64,000 nt of DNA from Halobacterium hubeiense (GTDB taxonomy: Archaea > Halobacteriota > Halobacteria > Halobacteriales > Halobacteriaceae), in NCBI RefSeq assembly GCF_001488575.1, contig NZ_LN831303.1, positions 186,001 through 250,000 of the forward strand, given 5' to 3'. A program made the position numbers and the translations under genes. A model generated the notes under the pieces. That model was given only the letters and a program-made list of their open reading frames with translations, did not search any database and had not been told where the DNA came from. Position 1 is the first letter of the stretch, and every line of letters begins with the position of its first letter. Positions 33,798-42,286 of the stretch are shown here, in pieces.

Positions 33798-34700
33798 TTA
33801 CGTAAAGGCTCGATAGATGTCCTCGACGGTAGGCTCATCAACCACAGCGTCGGTGACTTCACCACCATTTGCTTCCAGTGCCCGAACGACATCCAAATGA
33901 GAGTTGTCGCTGTCGTACGTGAGCGTGGCTTCACCGTCCGAAGTAGAGACCACCTCCGCGAAGGAGATGTTTGAAGCGGCCTCCGCCACCTTCTGCTGTC
34001 CCCCGTCGATACTGACGTGTATCTTACTACGGAGACCTGCCTCTCGTTGCAGGTCCCCAGGTTCTCCTCGAGTGAGGAGCTGCCCCTCAGAGAGGATTCC
34101 GATGTGGTCGCAAAGAACCTGAACCTCGCCGAGAATGTGGCTGGAGAAGAGGATCGTTGTCCCCCGCTCTCGTTCCTGTTCGACGACTTCACGCACGATC
34201 TGTGAGCCATCCGGGTCGAGGCCGGCGAACGGTTCGTCAAGTATCAACACTGCTGGGTTCCCAATAAGCGCAGTCGCCAGCCCCAACCGCTGGGTCATTC
34301 CCTTTGAATATCCGCTTGCTTGACGGTCCTTTGCTTCCGTAAGGCCCACTCGGGCGAGCGCATCATCAGCATCGACAGTTGCGCCACGGAGTTCGGCAAC
34401 GTGTTTCAGGTGGTCTCGTCCAGTTAGTGTGGGGTACGGTGTGAACCCCTCCGGAAGGACTCCAGTTTGGGACCGAACGGAAACGGGGTCTGATTCGGGG
34501 TTGATCCCTGCGACTGTTGCCTCTCCTCTGGTCGGCTGGATGAGGCCCATCAGCATCCCAATCGTTGTCGACTTTCCGCTGCCGTTCGGCCCTAAAAACC
34601 CAAACACACTTCCTTCCTCAACGGCGAGGTTCAGGTTGTCTACCGCCAGCGTATTGCTGTATTGCTTTTCGAGGTTCGTGGTTGTAATAACGTCTGTCAT
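33798..34700 (-). CDS. ABC transporter ATP-binding protein (ABC-2/Nos/Ccm type)
   Basis: 300 residues. Walker A FLGPNGSGKST, Q loop TGVLPEGFTPYPTLTG, signature YSKGMTQRLGLA, Walker B AVLILDEPFAGLDP and H loop FSSHI are all intact. It overlaps the upstream permease gene by 4 bp, so it is translated with it. Exporter-type subunit; given its neighbours it may move a Tat-exported product's partner or provide immunity, an inference. Confidence 0.94.
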   Translation of the reverse strand: MTDVITTTNLEKQYSNTLAVDNLNLAVEEGSVFGFLGPNGSGKSTTIGMLMGLIQPTRGEATVAGINPESDPVSVRSQTGVLPEGFTPYPTLTGRDHLKHVAELRGATVDADDALARVGLTEAKDRQASGYSKGMTQRLGLATALIGNPAVLILDEPFAGLDPDGSQIVREVVEQERERGTTILFSSHILGEVQVLCDHIGILSEGQLLTRGEPGDLQREAGLRSKIHVSIDGGQQKVAEAASNISFAEVVSTSDGEATLTYDSDNSHLDVVRALEANGGEVTDAVVDEPTVEDIYRAFT

Positions 34701-35647
34701 AGTTGCTGGAGGTCGGATCTCTTGAACACAGCATACCCTACTGCGAACACGACCAGCGAGATGCTGACCAGCGTTACCACGCTGGCCATCGGGTGTAGAT
34801 ACAGTGGGACCCCTGAGTCACCGAACAACGGACCGAGGGGTGTTACGCCAAGGGATACGCTATCCGGGCGTAGGTTAAACACGATGAGTAGGGAGAGCGC
34901 GTCAGCGTTGGGGAGGCCTAATGCCCAGTTCGAGAATGCGTAGTACGCGTTGGTAGGTGGGAGCCGACTAACGAGGGCTAAGAGACCAAGTGGGGCATCA
35001 GGTTGTGTACTAGCCAGGACAGTGCCGTCCGTTCCAGCGGGAGAGCCACCACTGGCGGACCCGTAGAGTAGCTTCAACGGGGCTGCGACGATAGATTCGT
35101 AGAAGAGGAACGAGGTAGCCCCCCCGACAAACGCGACGCTCGCGGGGACAATAGCTCGCTGAAAGAGCGCAGAGAGGCCAATCATCCCAATCGTGAGTGC
35201 TCCAGCGTACACCCCACTAAGAATTTCAAAGCCCAGCGTCCGCGGAATCGGCGGGCGGAAACCTGAAACTGTCCCGTAGAGATATCCGACGAACACGACA
35301 GCGGAGATCGCGAGTAGTAGAGCCGCGGTTTGACCAAGCGCTTTGCCCACCAGCACGTCGAGACGCGATACCGGCTGTAGCACTGTCGTCTGGAGCTGGC
35401 CGGCCCCTCGAGCGCCAGCAATGGCGCGAGCCCCAAAGAAGATACACGCGAAGGGGATGCAGATAGCAATTCCCCGCTGGAACGAGGCGATGTATCGGAG
35501 ATTGCCGAGGTACTGCATAGCTGTCTGCGTTGTTGTGACGTTTACTATCCCATCCAGTAGAATTGGTAGACTAAGGAGCCAGAGCACCCGGCTTCGCACA
35601 ATTCTATTGAAATGATACTCCGCAACCGCTGTTACGTTCTGTGGCAT
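34697..35647 (-). CDS. ABC-2-type permease
   Basis: 316 residues, six hydrophobic segments (IVRSRVLWLLSLPILLDGI, GIAICIPFACIFFGARAIAG, AALLLAISAVVFVGYLYG, IGMIGLSALFQRAIVPASV and two more). The GARGAGQLQTTVLQPVSR block after the second helix is typical of NosY/ABC-2 permeases. Forms the channel for the coupled ATPase. Confidence 0.88.
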   Translation of the reverse strand: MPQNVTAVAEYHFNRIVRSRVLWLLSLPILLDGIVNVTTTQTAMQYLGNLRYIASFQRGIAICIPFACIFFGARAIAGARGAGQLQTTVLQPVSRLDVLVGKALGQTAALLLAISAVVFVGYLYGTVSGFRPPIPRTLGFEILSGVYAGALTIGMIGLSALFQRAIVPASVAFVGGATSFLFYESIVAAPLKLLYGSASGGSPAGTDGTVLASTQPDAPLGLLALVSRLPPTNAYYAFSNWALGLPNADALSLLIVFNLRPDSVSLGVTPLGPLFGDSGVPLYLHPMASVVTLVSISLVVFAVGYAVFKRSDLQQL

Positions 35648-35713
35648 ATAGTTACTCTGTCTTGTATCTTCTCTGAGGAAAATGTTTCTGAGGCCGTAGG
35701 GCCGTTTAGACGG

Positions 35714-36382
35714 CTATAGCGGTGCGTTAGAGAGGAGAGTCTCGCCGTTGCCCAACGCGTCTCCACTGACATCTACCTCAGATGTGACGGTCTTACCGGC
35801 GCCCCGGAGTCTGAACTGGGCCTTTGCGCGCTGGATGAACGAAGCTGGGTCGCGTACTTTCTCGTCCACTTCCTTGCTTCCACTCACGTACGCCGCGAGC
35901 AGACCGCTGGCATTAGGGTCGAGAGTGGAGTTCACGCCTTGGTAGTCGCTGTTGTTGTAGGACCAGTCGATTCGGTGGGTGAAGGTGTACTCCGTTGTCG
36001 TCCCACCGACGCTCCCAGTAGCGGTAGCCTCGTAGTCTTCGGGTATGTAGGCGTCCGGAGTCGCCTTGATCTCAGAGGTCGATGGCATGGCGTTGGTCGT
36101 TCCCTCCTCGATACTCCAGGTGACATCCGTCATGACGCCTACGACTGCGTCCGTTCGTGCCTCGTTCAGTTCCCGTAGGTGCTTGGGCGGGTTGTCCTGC
36201 GCGTCAACCCATTCGAGATACTCAATGACTGCATCTCGATTCGAGGGGTCGAACGATGCTGAACTGCCGCTTTCCGCGGCCGTTGCACCTGGGACTGCGA
36301 CGGCGGTTGCTAGTGCTGCACCAGAGGCTTTGAGGAACCTTCGGCGGTTCTGCGATGTTGAGTTGCTATTTTTGCGGTCCAT
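35714..36382 (-). CDS. Tat-exported protein of unknown function
   Basis: 222 residues from ATG 36382. Twin-arginine signal QNRRRFLKASGAALATAVAV, with likely cleavage after ATAAES. The mature part (about 180 residues) has no Cys and contains NRDAVIEYLEWVDAQDNPP and a C-terminal DVSGDALGNGETLLSNAPL. It lies 66 bp upstream of the ABC permease on the same strand, so the three likely form an operon. The secreted product plus exporter resembles halocin-type clusters in layout, but the sequence does not match a halocin I know. Confidence 0.75.
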   Translation of the reverse strand: MDRKNSNSTSQNRRRFLKASGAALATAVAVPGATAAESGSSASFDPSNRDAVIEYLEWVDAQDNPPKHLRELNEARTDAVVGVMTDVTWSIEEGTTNAMPSTSEIKATPDAYIPEDYEATATGSVGGTTTEYTFTHRIDWSYNNSDYQGVNSTLDPNASGLLAAYVSGSKEVDEKVRDPASFIQRAKAQFRLRGAGKTVTSEVDVSGDALGNGETLLSNAPL

Positions 36383-36595
36383 GACTTCATTGATTACTAA
36401 GACCATTATCGCATTAGCCTATGCATTAACAATATACCGATTTGTGGGGAGATATCACCGCTCAAATCTTTTGGATTATATGCTAGTTTTCATAATGTGC
36501 GTAAGTTATTATTACAAGCTATAGGAAAAGGATATGATGAACTCCCAACTTTTGAGGGGTCGTCATTTCACGGGATTTTTGCAATCCATGGAGTG

Positions 36596-36832
36596 ATGAT
36601 AAGACAACCATATTCTCCGGTGCGACTCATAGCAAACAAAGATACCGGCCGCGGACGGGATTCGGTTCGGCGCACCTTCCTCAAAGGTGCGGCTGCAACT
36701 ACGTTCAGCATTGCTGGGCTTTCCGTGACGAGTGGCGGTGCCGCAGAAGCAAGTGCGTCGCAGCCGATCGAACTCCCAGCTATAATTGCGACGTTGGTAT
36801 ACCTCTCAAGCCAACAGAGCCATAGAACCTGA
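36596..36832 (+). pseudogene. truncated Tat-signal protein
   Basis: About 79 codons containing the twin-arginine signal SVRRTFLKGAAATTFSIAGL and a GGAAEA cleavage region. The frame then runs into sequence that does not continue a protein and stops just before a tnpB-type end (36860). Probably an exported protein gene cut off by insertion of the element. The AT-rich upstream 36383-36595 has no gene. Confidence 0.55.
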
Positions 36833-36859
36833 GTACCCCACCAAGTAACGATAATCCGG

Positions 36860-37245
36860 AGGGACTTACGGAAGTATGAGGAGAAAGCCTCGTGCTTTAG
36901 CGCGGGGATGAATCCGACACCTCTCCCCAAATACCGTCCGAACTACCCAAACCGATGTTTTAAGTAACTCATCACCCTACTAACAGCCAACCGAGGCGGC
37001 CTGCCCGCCCGCTTAATCGGACAGTATCGGGATTCCCTGATTCCAAGTGGAAGACACCCTCTTCCGTACCGGAACTCGGGGTGTAAGCACTAAGAAGTAT
37101 CTCCGAATCCCATGCCGGGATAGGAGTAACGGCTGGTTGGCACAGCCAGTAGCTGTCCTTCGGGGTGGCTACAAACCTTAAACATCCCAACCCAGCGGTG
37201 CGGTACCGTGGGAATCCTCGCCCTTTCAGGGCGGGGAGGATGTCA
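36860..37245 (+). mobile_element. two tandem tnpB-type 3' ends without tnpB
   Basis: First end at 36860-36915: CTTACGGAAGTATGAGGAG, AAAGCC, hairpin arms CTCGTGCT/AGCGCGGG, GATGAATCC. Second at about 37130-37245: TGGCACAGCCAGTAGCTG, then GGTACCGTGGGAATCC with hairpin CGCCCTTTCAGGGCG and GGGGAGGATGTCAA. The 200 bp between them resemble element interior but no TnpB residues are readable. Both may be guide-RNA scaffolds. Confidence 0.55.
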
Positions 37246-37254
37246 ATGGGGAAA

Positions 37255-38232
37255 TCAGTCGGACAACAGCTTCACAGTTCTCCCACAGGCGTACCCTACT
37301 GTCCCTACGATTGCCCCGCCTGCGACTGACCCAAGCAGAATATAGGCTACCCAGACACCTAACTGTGGGCCGATGAACCCGCGAAAGACGACAGCCATCT
37401 GGTGCCCAATCATACCCAGATACCCTGCTGTCGCAATAGTCCAGCCCGCTTGGATTGGGGATTGCTTGTAACTGGCCCATGCCACTACAAATATCAGCAG
37501 AACCGATACTACGGACAGAGCTTCGGTTATGCTGACTGTCTGAGTGAAGCCGAGAGCTTGCCGAAGAACCCAACCAATCGTGGCGACAGTGAACACAGCA
37601 CTCGAGAGGTACGCAAGGTTGACGCCCTGTGAGTCACCACGACGTCTGGGTGGTCCAGCCAGCCTTGTAGATGCCCTCACATAGGCGTGAACGGCGAGCG
37701 TAGTGGCGAAAAGGAGGGCCCCAAGAAACGCAGCGAGCACGTATGCTGGTGCCTCTGAGCCACCACCAGTAAGATTGGATACGGACGGAAGTCTGTGCGT
37801 GAGCACGGTGTGTACGATTACACTAACCCCCACCAGCACAGTACTGACCGTTGCGAAGTTCTTGATGAACCCAAACAAGCTCTGCTGCCGGTCATCAGTA
37901 CCAATGAATACGACGTGAGGGTTGTCGCCAGGCGCATAGACCGTCATCTCCTTTCCTCGGTCCGAATACCTGGTCCCGGCAACCTGGATCAAATCGGCGT
38001 CGCCGAGTCTGTCTAAATGGTGGGTGACGTTCTCTACGGAGACATCAACTTGATTTGCCACCTCAGATGGCGTTGAAGGCTCTCGATGAATTTGGTTGAG
38101 AATCGCTCTCGCACCCTCGCTTGCAAGAACGCTAAAGATCTCGTCCGCTTGCTCCCCGACCAACCCGTGTACTCGAACGGCTCCTCCTTGAGAGGAGTCG
38201 AAATCAAACACATCGGGGGGCAATAGCGACAT
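37255..38232 (-). CDS. membrane-bound winged-helix regulator
   Basis: 325 residues from ATG 38232; a longer frame upstream overlaps the protease gene's 3' end and is unlikely. The N-terminal wHTH (about residues 35-95: LASEGARAILNQIHREPSTPSEVANQVDVSVENVTHHLDRLGDADLI is the core region) is followed by a beta hairpin with DRGKEMTVYAPG and six or seven transmembrane helices. A one-component membrane sensor that could bind DNA while sensing the envelope. It is 52 bp downstream of the Tat protease gene, so likely co-transcribed; neighbours suggest it reports on the exported products. Confidence 0.82.
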   Translation of the reverse strand: MSLLPPDVFDFDSSQGGAVRVHGLVGEQADEIFSVLASEGARAILNQIHREPSTPSEVANQVDVSVENVTHHLDRLGDADLIQVAGTRYSDRGKEMTVYAPGDNPHVVFIGTDDRQQSLFGFIKNFATVSTVLVGVSVIVHTVLTHRLPSVSNLTGGGSEAPAYVLAAFLGALLFATTLAVHAYVRASTRLAGPPRRRGDSQGVNLAYLSSAVFTVATIGWVLRQALGFTQTVSITEALSVVSVLLIFVVAWASYKQSPIQAGWTIATAGYLGMIGHQMAVVFRGFIGPQLGVWVAYILLGSVAGGAIVGTVGYACGRTVKLLSD

Positions 38233-38284
38233 CAGTATATTGGTGGCGTGGTTCTCGTTTACTTTTTTCGGTGCGTTGTCATTC

Positions 38285-39415
38285 TCACCATCCGTATCCG
38301 TACTCCTGGTTGATATGGTAGGCCCCGGTCCCGAATGCGTACCGGCCCCCGAGGTTGTACGGGCTAGTGACGCCCCCACACATCGCGACGGCGAGGACCT
38401 TATCGTCCTGATGGTGGCGGTAAGCAACGGCCCCACTATCGCCGTCCTCTAGAGTAGACGAGCTTCCCCACCGGACCTGTTCGTGTCTTGTCGTCGACCC
38501 ATCGAACACGTTGGTCCCAACGCCTCGAACCTCCCCACTAGTTTCACAGGTTCCGACGCCCTGCTTCGTGATCGACTTGTTGTCGGCAGCGAGTGCTTGC
38601 ACGCCAGACTTCGTGTAATTGCCCCATATTTTGTAGTTCGTTCCATAGAGTTCCCGAGTGGGAGTATGGCCATTCGCTGGCTCACAAGCGACGAAATCAT
38701 CAGTTGAATCGCCGTCGGTTACCTTGCCGATGGTATTCCCGTCACTTTGGGAGAGTTCTGCCGAGTCATCAACGGGACTTGAGCCGAAGATGTGCCAGCA
38801 AGTCGCGAAGTACATCGTCCCGTCCTTCACGAGAGGAGAGCTAAGCGTTCCAGGACTACTGCCACTACACTCAACCCCTCCGGGAGGCGTAGAACCGTAG
38901 TCCCCAGTGCCGCAAGCGGACTGAATTGACGGGGTAATCGAAGGATCCGACGTCTCTTCGACTTTCTTCTTTTCAACTGGGACGCCCCCGATGGAGTCCG
39001 GAAGTGAACGCTCGTCTCCGGGACTGATCGAGTCTCTACTAGACGAACCACTCTCCTTGACCTCTACTTCGATTGAAGGCTCGGCGTTGTCGAAGGTGTC
39101 CGGGTTGACAAGGGTAGCTACCACATCGTCACGCTGGTAGAACTTCTCCCGGTCGTGAACCTCAGTCGCGTGAGTAACGGCTTCGTGCCAGTCCTTGGGG
39201 ACATCTTTTTCCACCACTTCGTACTCTGCGTCTGCCCCACTCTCCATCGGAACCCGGGCTTCCGTGATTGTGACTTCCTCGTCAGTTGCTGCACTGACGT
39301 GGCCCGCACCGAATGCTATACTGCTCCCGATTGCAACTGTCTTCAGAAATGTTCGCCGACCGGAGCGCGTGCTTTTCCCTTTCTCTACCTTATCTTCACT
39401 TCTGTCATCGGACAT
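38285..39415 (-). CDS. Tat-exported chymotrypsin-like serine protease
   Basis: 376 residues. Tat signal RSGRRTFLKTVAIGSSIAFG, then a ~120-residue pro-region (YEVVEKDVPKDWHEAVTHAT) and a trypsin/chymotrypsin-fold domain: catalytic His in ATCWHIFGS, probable Asp in DSTDDFVACEPAN, and nucleophile Ser in EDGDSGAVAYRH. Cys residues in ACGTGDYG, VECSG, GTCETSG and AMCGG may form disulfides. Predicted secreted protease, perhaps processing the exported protein encoded nearby. Confidence 0.85.
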   Translation of the reverse strand: MSDDRSEDKVEKGKSTRSGRRTFLKTVAIGSSIAFGAGHVSAATDEEVTITEARVPMESGADAEYEVVEKDVPKDWHEAVTHATEVHDREKFYQRDDVVATLVNPDTFDNAEPSIEVEVKESGSSSRDSISPGDERSLPDSIGGVPVEKKKVEETSDPSITPSIQSACGTGDYGSTPPGGVECSGSSPGTLSSPLVKDGTMYFATCWHIFGSSPVDDSAELSQSDGNTIGKVTDGDSTDDFVACEPANGHTPTRELYGTNYKIWGNYTKSGVQALAADNKSITKQGVGTCETSGEVRGVGTNVFDGSTTRHEQVRWGSSSTLEDGDSGAVAYRHHQDDKVLAVAMCGGVTSPYNLGGRYAFGTGAYHINQEYGYGW

Positions 39416-39618
39416 GACTCACTGATCTGTAATTCACCAACCTCAGCCCATGGACCGATTAATTAGAAGGAAGCGAGTCCCTCTCTACAAATAAAAATTC
39501 TATCATAGTTGAGGGGCTCTCCGATAGTGGGCTAGTAATCAGTCATAAAACTATCGCTAGCCAAAATCGAATTTCGGTGTGGCAATAAATCAATAGGACC
39601 GAGTATTAGTTGTTTAAC

Positions 39619-40389
39619 ATGAAATTGGGCTCGGAACTTCCGTCGCTAGAGGTCATCGTGTCCCGGTATGAGATACTTGAACAGGTGGATATGGGAGTAG
39701 TAGAGAAGAGAAAAATGAATGATAACTTGGAGGCCTCACGGACCACGATAGACAGGTCGGTGCGAGAATTGGAGGCAGCCAATGTCCTAGAGCGGCGCAA
39801 CGGCAGCTGTGAGTTCACCAGATATGGGAGAATCGTGTATGAAGAGTTCCGCGAGACCGTCAAGGCGGCAGAGAAGGTTAAGCCAGCGTCTGAACTCCTA
39901 GCTATGCTACCGCCCAATTCGCCAATTGGGGCGACTATCGCAAACGCTGATGCAGTTGAGATGGCCCCTGAGCGTGCTCCAGTTACGGCTCTAGAGGATT
40001 TGGGGATCCCACCGGACTGCAATACCATTCGTGCCTCGCTCCCCGTCGTCTTCTCCCAACAACTCCAAGCGATTCGTGATTATGCTAAGGGGGGTACAAC
40101 TCTTGAAATTCTCACGCATCCAGATTTAGTGAGCCTAATTCAGCGAAGGTATCCCGAAGTTTGCGAGTTACTCGACAGAAGTAGTAGTGGTATTCATTCC
40201 GCTTCAGAACTCCCAGAGTTCGGGCTCATCGTATACGGCTCCGAGGAAGTCCGCGTGTGCGTGTACGAGGGAATGAGCCAACTGTCGGGAGTGTTGCAGA
40301 ATCAAGATGCTGACGCGGTCAGCGAGGCCATCTCGATTTTCGAGGAAAACAAGCGAGTTGCTGAACCCGCGTTTGAAGTTGAGGCATAG
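39619..40389 (+). CDS. winged-helix transcriptional regulator with C-terminal ligand domain
   Basis: 256 residues from ATG 39619. N-terminal wHTH (SRYEILEQVDMGVVEKRKMN, TTIDRSVRELEAANVLERRN) and a C-terminal alpha/beta region (IRASLPVVFSQQLQAIRDYA, LTHPDLVSLI, ELPEFGLIVYGSEEVRVCVY) that matches the layout of archaeal DUF1724-type regulators. Divergent from the protease gene; the 203-bp region between (39416-39618) contains the probable promoters. Candidate regulator of the export cluster. Confidence 0.82.
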   Translation: MKLGSELPSLEVIVSRYEILEQVDMGVVEKRKMNDNLEASRTTIDRSVRELEAANVLERRNGSCEFTRYGRIVYEEFRETVKAAEKVKPASELLAMLPPNSPIGATIANADAVEMAPERAPVTALEDLGIPPDCNTIRASLPVVFSQQLQAIRDYAKGGTTLEILTHPDLVSLIQRRYPEVCELLDRSSSGIHSASELPEFGLIVYGSEEVRVCVYEGMSQLSGVLQNQDADAVSEAISIFEENKRVAEPAFEVEA

Positions 40390-41538: not shown

Positions 41539-42281
41539 GGCACTGTCTAGTTGAGTTAGTTTGAGAAGTGAGCAGATCGTTGAGTTAATCGACCAAGATG
41601 CTCGCAGACCTGCTCAGCGAGAGCTATGAACCGGATTTAGAAGAAACTTGGGAGAACGAGCGGACGGCGACGCCCGTCAGGACGTTCGCCGTCCGTCTCC
41701 ACCAAACCGGTTGTTCACTCAGAGAAACAACAACGATCTTAGCGGAATTAGGCGTTCAACGCTCTCATGGCGCGGTTTAAACTGGGTACATCGGCTATCT
41801 GACAGCGGACGCGACCCGCCTGAGGCGCAGCCGAAGCGGGTCGCCGTCGACGAGACTGCTGTCAAGATTAACGGTGAGTGGTCTTGGTTGTATGCTGCAA
41901 TAGACATCGACACGAAGCTAATTCTCGATGTCGCGTTGTTCGGACGACATGGCACTGATCCGGCGGCTGCGTTCCTCGCTGGACTCCGTGAGAAACACGA
42001 TCTCTCAGAGGCGGAGTTTCTCGTCGATCAATTCGGCTATCAAACTGCCCTTGCCCGATTAGGATTGAGCGGTCGGGTCAACTATACCGACCGAAGCCTC
42101 ATCGAAAAGTGGTTTCACACGCTCAAAATGCGGGTCGACCGCTTCCATAACTCGTGGGTGGACAGTCGGTCCAGCGTTCGAGAGTGGCTTGAACAGTTTA
42201 TGCATTACTACAACCGCCACAGACCTCATCAAGCTCTCGATGGAAAAACGCCGGTTGAGAACCTCAGAACTAGACAGTCCC
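41539..42281 (+). mobile_element. IS6-family (ISH14/15-like) insertion sequence, 743 bp
   Basis: Terminal repeats GGCACTGTCTAGTT (41539-41552) and AACTAGACAGTCCC (42268-42281) match at 13 of 14 positions as inverted repeats. Encodes one transposase, which is frameshifted. No perfect 8-bp target duplication remains (ATAAATAT against ATTAGAAT), consistent with an old insertion. Confidence 0.88.
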
Positions 42282-42286
42282 ATTAG
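41598..42286 (+). pseudogene. IS6-family DDE transposase, frameshifted
   Basis: N-terminal HTH part (TFAVRLHQTGCSLRETTTIL, VQRSHGAV) stops at 41778. The +1 frame then resumes as NWVHRLSDSGRDPPEAQP and carries the catalytic region: D in RVAVDETAVKING, D in EFLVDQFGYQ and E in IEKWFHTLKMRVDRF. A one-base deletion in GTTTAAACTGG (expected GTTTGGAACTGG) explains the break, so the element cannot transpose by itself. Confidence 0.85.

Follow-up and report, generated by a model that had tools for sequence, protein, structure and literature searches.

A Tat-exported protein family paired with ABC-2 exporters in haloarchaea: a candidate halocin-like cassette in Halobacterium hubeiense

Few molecules are known for antagonism among archaea. 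Halocins carry twin-arginine translocation (Tat) signals; the end of halocin C8 is rich in cysteines, and its production and immunity are reportedly encoded by one gene. In the available part of the HmHapP paper, halocins H4 and C8 are secreted haloarchaeal precursors from which proteolysis frees a bioactive fragment, and the Haloferax mediterranei halolysin HlyR4 cleaves the secreted proteins HmHapP and HalH4, releasing parts that kill haloarchaea; in HmHapP the killing part is a helical N-terminus of 45 residues (PMC12893001). Here we analyse a 64,000-nucleotide (nt) stretch of the Halobacterium hubeiense contig NZ_LN831303.1 (G000:C2:186001-250000; hereafter the window, whose coordinates are used unless a prefix is given), the contig being 349,522 bases of a 3.13-Mb haloarchaeal genome. 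It contains a cassette centred on the Tat-exported protein P0002, with the genes of an ABC-2 exporter of the ATP-binding cassette (ABC) type (ATPase P0006, permease P0003), a Tat-exported protease (P0001) and two regulators (P0004 and P0005). The pairing of the P0002 family with ABC exporters clearly exceeds chance, and we tentatively read the cassette as encoding a halocin-like antagonistic precursor that would be processed by proteases and accompanied by a self-protection exporter.

In what is available of the HmHapP text, HmHapP and HlyR4 resemble P0002 and P0001 in that a secreted haloarchaeal precursor of similar size (HmHapP spans 705 bp without its signal) with a helical N-terminus goes together with an extracellular serine protease (PMC12893001). 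The helical N-terminus is the active part of HmHapP, whereas that of P0002 is predicted by models; HlyR4 is a halolysin and is not described there as the product of a neighbouring gene, whereas the window protease is of the chymotrypsin type and belongs to the same gene set; and the term 'ABC transporter' is absent from the paper's main text, whereas the window set includes an ABC exporter (PMC12893001). Halolysins are subtilisin-like according to the available text of a further source (PMC6085418). The proteolytic release described for halocins H4 and C8 (PMC12893001) is likewise what would be proposed for P0002. From halocin C8, P0002 differs in having no cysteine at all and no model match, and in being accompanied by a separate ABC exporter rather than containing a built-in immunity segment.

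A further parallel is lactococcin 972 of Gram-positive bacteria, of about 66 residues. It is described, in the text available, as a Sec-exported beta-sandwich bacteriocin from a three-gene operon that also encodes presumed immunity and transport proteins (PMC11796350); P0002 is archaeal, exported by Tat instead of Sec, 182 residues long in its modelled mature form and without a match to any bacteriocin model. Neither a dedicated immunity transporter for a halocin nor a description of a Tat–ABC pairing was found among the titles and abstract beginnings listed by searches of open-licence literature, and the cassette would be a variant of the protease-activated halocin systems.

Pairing of the P0002 family with ABC-2 exporters

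P0002 is encoded on the minus strand at 35714-36382 and comprises 222 residues, 182 of which were modelled as the mature protein. As in halocins, it is an exported precursor with an N-terminal signal, the Tat signal scoring over the NCBIfam cut-off (19.5 against 16.7 bits) and under that of Pfam (19.4 against 22.7 bits). Beyond the signal there is no Pfam match above cut-off, and the first-pass annotation was right to describe a secreted protein of about 180 residues from no known family. None of 32 family sequences, three of them fragments, has a lipobox, P0002 included; the twin-arginine motif is found in 24 of the 32 members, and the stray sub-cut-off Pfam matches among 12 scanned members concern one member each (best E 0.0007). 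A lactococcin 972 model, presumably included in these libraries, matched neither P0002 (NCBIfam) nor the 12 members (Pfam).

The exporter is encoded on the same strand by the ATPase gene (P0006, 33798-34700; Pfam ABC_tran, 1.6e-28) and the permease gene (P0003, 34697-35647; Pfam ABC2_membrane_2, 58.1 bits against a cut-off of 27.2), which share a 4-nt overlap and bear out the ABC-2 exporter proposed at first. The permease has 316 residues and six hydrophobic segments, and the relatives of P0006 among solved structures (PDB) are ABCA, NosF (3.5e-54) and Rv1218c. Membership of P0006 in the DrrAB daunorubicin exporters or the lantibiotic-protection exporters was rejected, both NCBIfam scores lying under the curated cut-offs (drrA, 229.9 against 312.45 bits; lantibiotic-protection ATPase, 181 against 309.75 bits).

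Relatives of P0002 occur in 17 of 292 genomes by sequence search, three signal-region matches (G258, G249 and G274) being excluded, and an alignment search places the family in 27 of 391 genomes, including 3 of 13 within the genus, a patchy distribution. Flanks were fetched for 31 other Tat loci and their genes called by a simple script, which with the window gives 32 loci; two weak or partial places (G342:C1 and G033) among the 34 of the alignment search were left without flanks, L083 is a duplicate of L117 and uncounted, and L079 and L080 sit at contig ends. An ABC ATPase and permease pair lies within 5 kb of the Tat gene in 15 of the 32 loci, compared with 0 of 258 genes in 18 control loci, all but one of which surround protease relatives, the exception being a stretch of the same contig as the window, with which it overlaps. 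The Fisher p of about 1e-16 ignores relatedness and near-identical loci, and most of the material for the family models came from loci that were then annotated with them, these models having also served to score the control genes. The pair accompanies 11 of 17 members matching the model with E up to 4e-50, and 4 of 15 weaker members. The first-pass annotation had made its gene set depend on co-occurrence elsewhere; this was found strongly for the Tat and ABC genes (14 of the 31 other loci) and weakly for the protease (L073 only).

The exporter varies in build: permeases are single (279-316 residues) or double (623-648 residues), L132 has two of them flanking one ATPase, and the order and orientation of the Tat and ABC genes vary among loci as well. 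L068, with the closest Tat relative (about 50%), has regulator, ATPase, permease and Tat genes; L131, with a weak member, has Tat gene, permease, ATPase, regulator and a winged-helix (wHTH) gene without a protease. Beside the closest relative, L068:9591-13823 encodes a protein of 1410 residues with a sub-threshold AAA_16/STAND match. The divergence of the Tat proteins goes along with that of the ATPases: their distances give r 0.77 over 13 loci (all 15 with an ABC link except L080 and L120, which are broken) and r 0.72, p 0.003, over 10 non-redundant ones. On a tree of 22 chosen ATPases, 13 of them Tat-linked and nine others, the Tat-linked ones fall into several clades and need six label changes, at least three of them forced by supported branches, against a shuffled mean of 7.3, with 114 of 500 shuffled trees as low. 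This scatter implies that the link was made several times, or that it was kept in some lineages and lost elsewhere.

In three loci the Tat gene is damaged and the ATPase and permease genes are open: L080 has a frameshift and a stop, L120 retains the last 79 residues only, and L083/L117 lacks the first 82. This is what would be expected if immunity outlives the effector; single cases could be explained by sequencing errors. A secreted family repeatedly paired with ABC-2 exporters, and with broken members beside open exporters, offers a testable candidate for an effector–immunity pair. A second Tat/ABC cassette, L077 (G000:C2:326000-344999), lies on the window's own contig, and L077 and L073 share small genes of Tat-motif lipoprotein-like and membrane types (c59, c60 and c61).

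Six strong Tat members have no ABC pair, and another small gene lies near five of them. The product of c57 (about 150 residues) has a twin arginine in L072; its gene lies 2 nt off in L118, and in L069 a truncated version is found at a distance of 1.5 kb. The gene of c76 (also about 150 residues, with a Tat motif) overlaps the Tat gene in L079 and L081, and c58, a membrane protein of 109 residues, is found in L069 and L072; L069/L072 and L079/L081 are close pairs. The idea that c57 and c76 are distant copies of the Tat protein was dropped, profile comparison being insignificant. Where c57 or c76 closely follows a Tat member and the surrounding 5 kb lack an ABC pair (L079:13147-14294, L081:8098-9254, L072:7051-8472 and L118:7387-8512), the two could form a two-protein system. 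Near the Tat-family member of L118 there is also an M48 peptidase gene (L118:6059-7303).

Predicted structure and proposed mechanism

AlphaFold models were obtained for P0002 (pLDDT 78.5, pTM 0.72; three helices and eight strands) and for a member from Natribaculum breve (pLDDT 88.3, pTM 0.80); the two proteins are 23% identical and both models derive from the same five sequences. Each model predicts three helices within the first 47 residues (9-20, 25-30 and 34-45 in P0002; 9-20, 24-32 and 36-47 in the N. breve member), followed by an eight-stranded beta meander, and a helical N-terminal segment of the HmHapP type is thus predicted for both. In VIA-align the top match is each time the Listeria protein Zea/Lmo2686 (4k15), once with Z 7.9 over 94 residues at a root-mean-square deviation (rmsd) of 3.5 and once with Z 7.0 over 97 residues at an rmsd of 3.4. 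For P0002 the row after Zea stands at Z 4.3, no leukocidin appears among 50 rows, and the pore proteins RCD-1 and membrane attack complex are found at Z 3.7-4.3; for the N. breve model 3c5p comes second (Z 5.3), and titles identify nine of 50 rows as leukocidin or hemolysin structures (Z 3.1-5.0), to which 6u3y and 6u3t probably belong as well. Foldseek returned nothing significant from the PDB for either model, nor from viral models, and the helical part of the models was barely probed by the structure searches.

Like P0002, Zea is secreted; it has about 150 residues and forms rings, and the available text mentions no ABC partner, whereas P0002 has one (PMC6907008). The P0002 family shares 4-13% identity with Zea at Z below 8, and the helical N-terminus of P0002 lies beyond the aligned range. 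A Zea-like fold is a lead, and scores of Z below 8 can arise from a common arrangement. An improbable reading, in whose favour the Zea and leukocidin matches speak, is that P0002 founds a haloarchaeal toxin family with a Zea- or leukocidin-like beta-sandwich, which would form rings or pores after proteolytic loss of a helical cap and against which the ABC-2 exporter would confer immunity.

The halocin-like precursor with exporter immunity is ranked first because the layout of P0002 resembles that of HmHapP, a protease gene lies in the neighbourhood and an ABC exporter, where self-protection is commonly sought, recurs; it is a possible reading that falls short of being a probable one. P0002 would be made as a precursor, exported via Tat and, to judge from the missing lipobox, released from the cell. 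Extracellular proteases, here the co-encoded P0001, would then cleave it, and the active part so freed may be either the helical stretch formed by the first 45 residues or the beta domain. The exporter formed by P0006 and P0003 would guard the producer by clearing this active form from the membrane, and the FilR1-like P0005 together with the membrane-bound P0004 would turn the genes on. The observations behind this scheme are the gene content, the Tat signals, the recurrence of the pair, the co-divergence of its partners and the damaged Tat genes beside open ABC genes; release, cleavage, killing, immunity and regulation are proposed.

Protease, regulators and rival explanations

The protease gene P0001 (38285-39415, minus strand) encodes a pro-region and the Tat motif SGRRTFLK, yet no Tat model matches it above cut-off. 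The twin arginine and the residues His208, Asp240 and Ser327 (GDSG), a triad assigned by position, are invariant in 12 of 12 family members, and the PDB profile matches to plant NARROW LEAF 1 (7.9e-05) and, weakly, to a Streptomyces Glu-specific protease (0.028) fit a chymotrypsin type, in agreement with the secreted protease with pro-region first proposed. No Pfam family covers P0001 in a scan of 12 members; a subtilisin-type halolysin (S8 domain) was rejected on this ground and on those of the GDSG motif and the chymotrypsin-type PDB matches. In four loci the protease is followed by a small protein of cluster c8 (70-101 residues, one or two hydrophobic segments; L054:7401-7613, L062:7182-7406, L063:5920-6225 and L066:7648-7887), possibly an inhibitor or an anchor.

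One other locus, L073 from the same genus, holds the wHTH, protease, Tat, ATPase, permease and regulator genes within about 7 kb, in an order that differs from the window's; protease and Tat gene share a strand there, the former 179 nt upstream of the latter. Its Tat protein is 21-23% and its protease 24% identical to those of the window, and its wHTH protein has 200 residues and two hydrophobic segments. For the 31 loci other than the window, and assuming 3.7 Mb per genome, the probability that one or more have a protease within 5 kb by chance is about 3%, and less at 179 nt; a corresponding estimate of 6e-4 for at least two protease loci includes the window, itself chosen for its arrangement, and has rough inputs. 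The protease is the weakest link of the gene set.

All five leftward genes and the divergent regulator lie at the positions that the first-pass annotation gave them. The regulator, P0005 (39610-40389, plus strand), combines an HVO_A0261-type wHTH with a FilR1 middle domain (Pfam, 51.4 bits with a cut-off of 35 and 36.5 bits with a cut-off of 27). P0004 (37255-38232, minus strand) is an ArsR-like wHTH regulator (Pfam HTH_20, 9.2e-08) with a C-terminal membrane domain; the seven helices once attributed to it give way to four to six hydrophobic segments, depending on the threshold of a simple hydropathy scan. It matches 57 plasmid records, the 20 listed being 41-48% identical over the wHTH part only, and none of the 57 covers more than 80% of it.

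Several findings weigh against the halocin-like reading. No ABC pair lies within 5 kb in 17 of the 32 Tat loci, including 11 of the 15 weaker members, and in all eight plasmid loci hand-picked for close ATPases among 57 records the ABC pair stands without a Tat relative (Natribaculum breve, among the 57, is the Tat-linked L075). L077 presents the reverse of the damaged loci, with an open Tat gene, a double permease split between two frames and a second ABC pair about 4 kb off. P0002 and its family match no halocin or bacteriocin model in Pfam or NCBIfam, libraries whose halocin content is unverified. The ratio of non-synonymous to synonymous substitution rates (dN/dS) of the Tat gene is 0.09-0.29 in the six of seven pairs for which it was computable, which indicates purifying selection and gives no sign of positive selection or an arms race. 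The P0001 family is far commoner than the Tat family, since 100 of 292 haloarchaeal genomes have a member (as do 13 plasmid records, each at less than 60% identity), and only two of the 32 Tat loci, the window and L073, have the protease. Regulators of the P0005 type in 6 and of the wHTH type in 4 of the 32 loci are unspecific, both types also standing beside proteases without a Tat gene.

The halocin-like reading is nonetheless placed ahead of a nearly as likely explanation, itself somewhat doubtful, in which P0002 is a secreted binding or envelope protein without a part in antagonism and the ABC-2 exporter exports its ligand or clears a bound toxic compound, much as NosFY operates with the periplasmic NosD, in an envelope-stress or detoxification unit. 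The window set does resemble NosDFY in its ATPase, homologous to NosF at 3.5e-54, in a permease of the NosY type, judging from ABC2_membrane_2, which we take to be a Pfam family linked to NosY, and in its position beside a secreted protein. NosD folds as a beta-helix; Pfam gives no NosD match for P0002, its modelled helices and eight-strand meander are of another kind, and it does not qualify as a NosD-type partner. Purifying selection on the gene suits a non-antagonistic function, the co-divergence of Tat protein and ABC exporter suits a physical partnership as well as immunity, and the nearest fold in both models is that of Zea, a secreted RNA-binding ring protein in the text available (PMC6907008). 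No lipobox would hold P0002 at the exporter, however, and the three loci where a damaged Tat gene accompanies an open exporter, the patchy distribution and the members that have another small partner instead of the ABC pair also speak against this explanation. A rather unlikely explanation, also ranked behind the halocin-like reading, is that two unrelated modules adjoin, one of Tat protein and ABC exporter and one, also known from a Halorubrum plasmid, of protease and divergent regulator, so that the protease would be irrelevant to P0002. Proteases with a divergent P0005-family regulator nearby are also present in L051 and L059, where the five genes displayed to the left and right include neither a Tat nor an ABC relative, the protease family is common in its own right, and in the window a miniature inverted-repeat transposable element (MITE) and a relic open reading frame (ORF) separate the two parts. 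Against this stands L073, in which protease and Tat gene are close neighbours with wHTH and regulator genes alongside, an arrangement of low chance probability, albeit with proteins only 21-24% identical to the window's. Finally, the ABC pair may be a commonplace exporter of haloarchaea that travels with genes of many kinds, the Tat protein being an accidental neighbour. The eight plasmid loci and the spread of the Tat label over the ATPase tree, about as wide as when shuffled, agree with such an exporter, but the contrast between Tat loci (15 of 32 with the pair) and control genes (0 of 258) and the correlated divergence of Tat protein and ATPase make it very improbable, and it is disfavoured.

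Mobile element and neighbouring sequences

The two tnpB-type ends noted at first are in fact the two ends of a single 385-nt element (36862-37246, plus strand), which is termed MITE-like because there is no transposase or TnpB gene inside. A second copy with the same borders lies at G000:C2:78779-79163 (88% identity), and copies on Halobacterium salinarum plasmids are 84% identical with borders within 4 nt. More widely, 8 of 16 plasmid records with DNA matches are from Halobacterium, over 8-9% of the query. The right part of the element matches the sense-overlapping transcript sot0042 of Rfam with 77.3 bits where the gathering score is 88; RNAs of the sot class are part of IS200/IS605 elements. 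A gap of 8 nt separates one end from the P0004 stop codon, and a guide read from the element would fall on the end of that gene. The interval 36780-37260 is matched by 931 plasmid records, 826 of them from Klebsiella and most at 90-95% identity, presumably through a short shared stretch.

The short ORF at 36596-36832 (plus strand) does carry the Tat motif for which it had been called a further Tat-signal gene fragment, but only about 28 residues follow, and it is either a relic gene or the source of a secreted product of very small size. For the last 39 residues, the sole matching genome of the 292 is the one that carries the ORF. A relationship to c59 or P0002 was rejected, tblastn similarity in the fetched loci being confined to the signal peptide.

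A role in anti-phage defence was rejected, PADLOC giving generic wHTH and ATPase matches only. A phage origin was rejected likewise, P0001, P0002, P0003 and P0005 being without a PHROGs match and P0004 having two weak ones in a scan that excluded P0006; no P0002 relative was found in viral contigs by a scan sensitive to close relatives only. Further along the window, at 41648-42286, lies an ORF of 212 residues without a PADLOC match, which we take to resemble a DDE transposase and which has a relative in L077.

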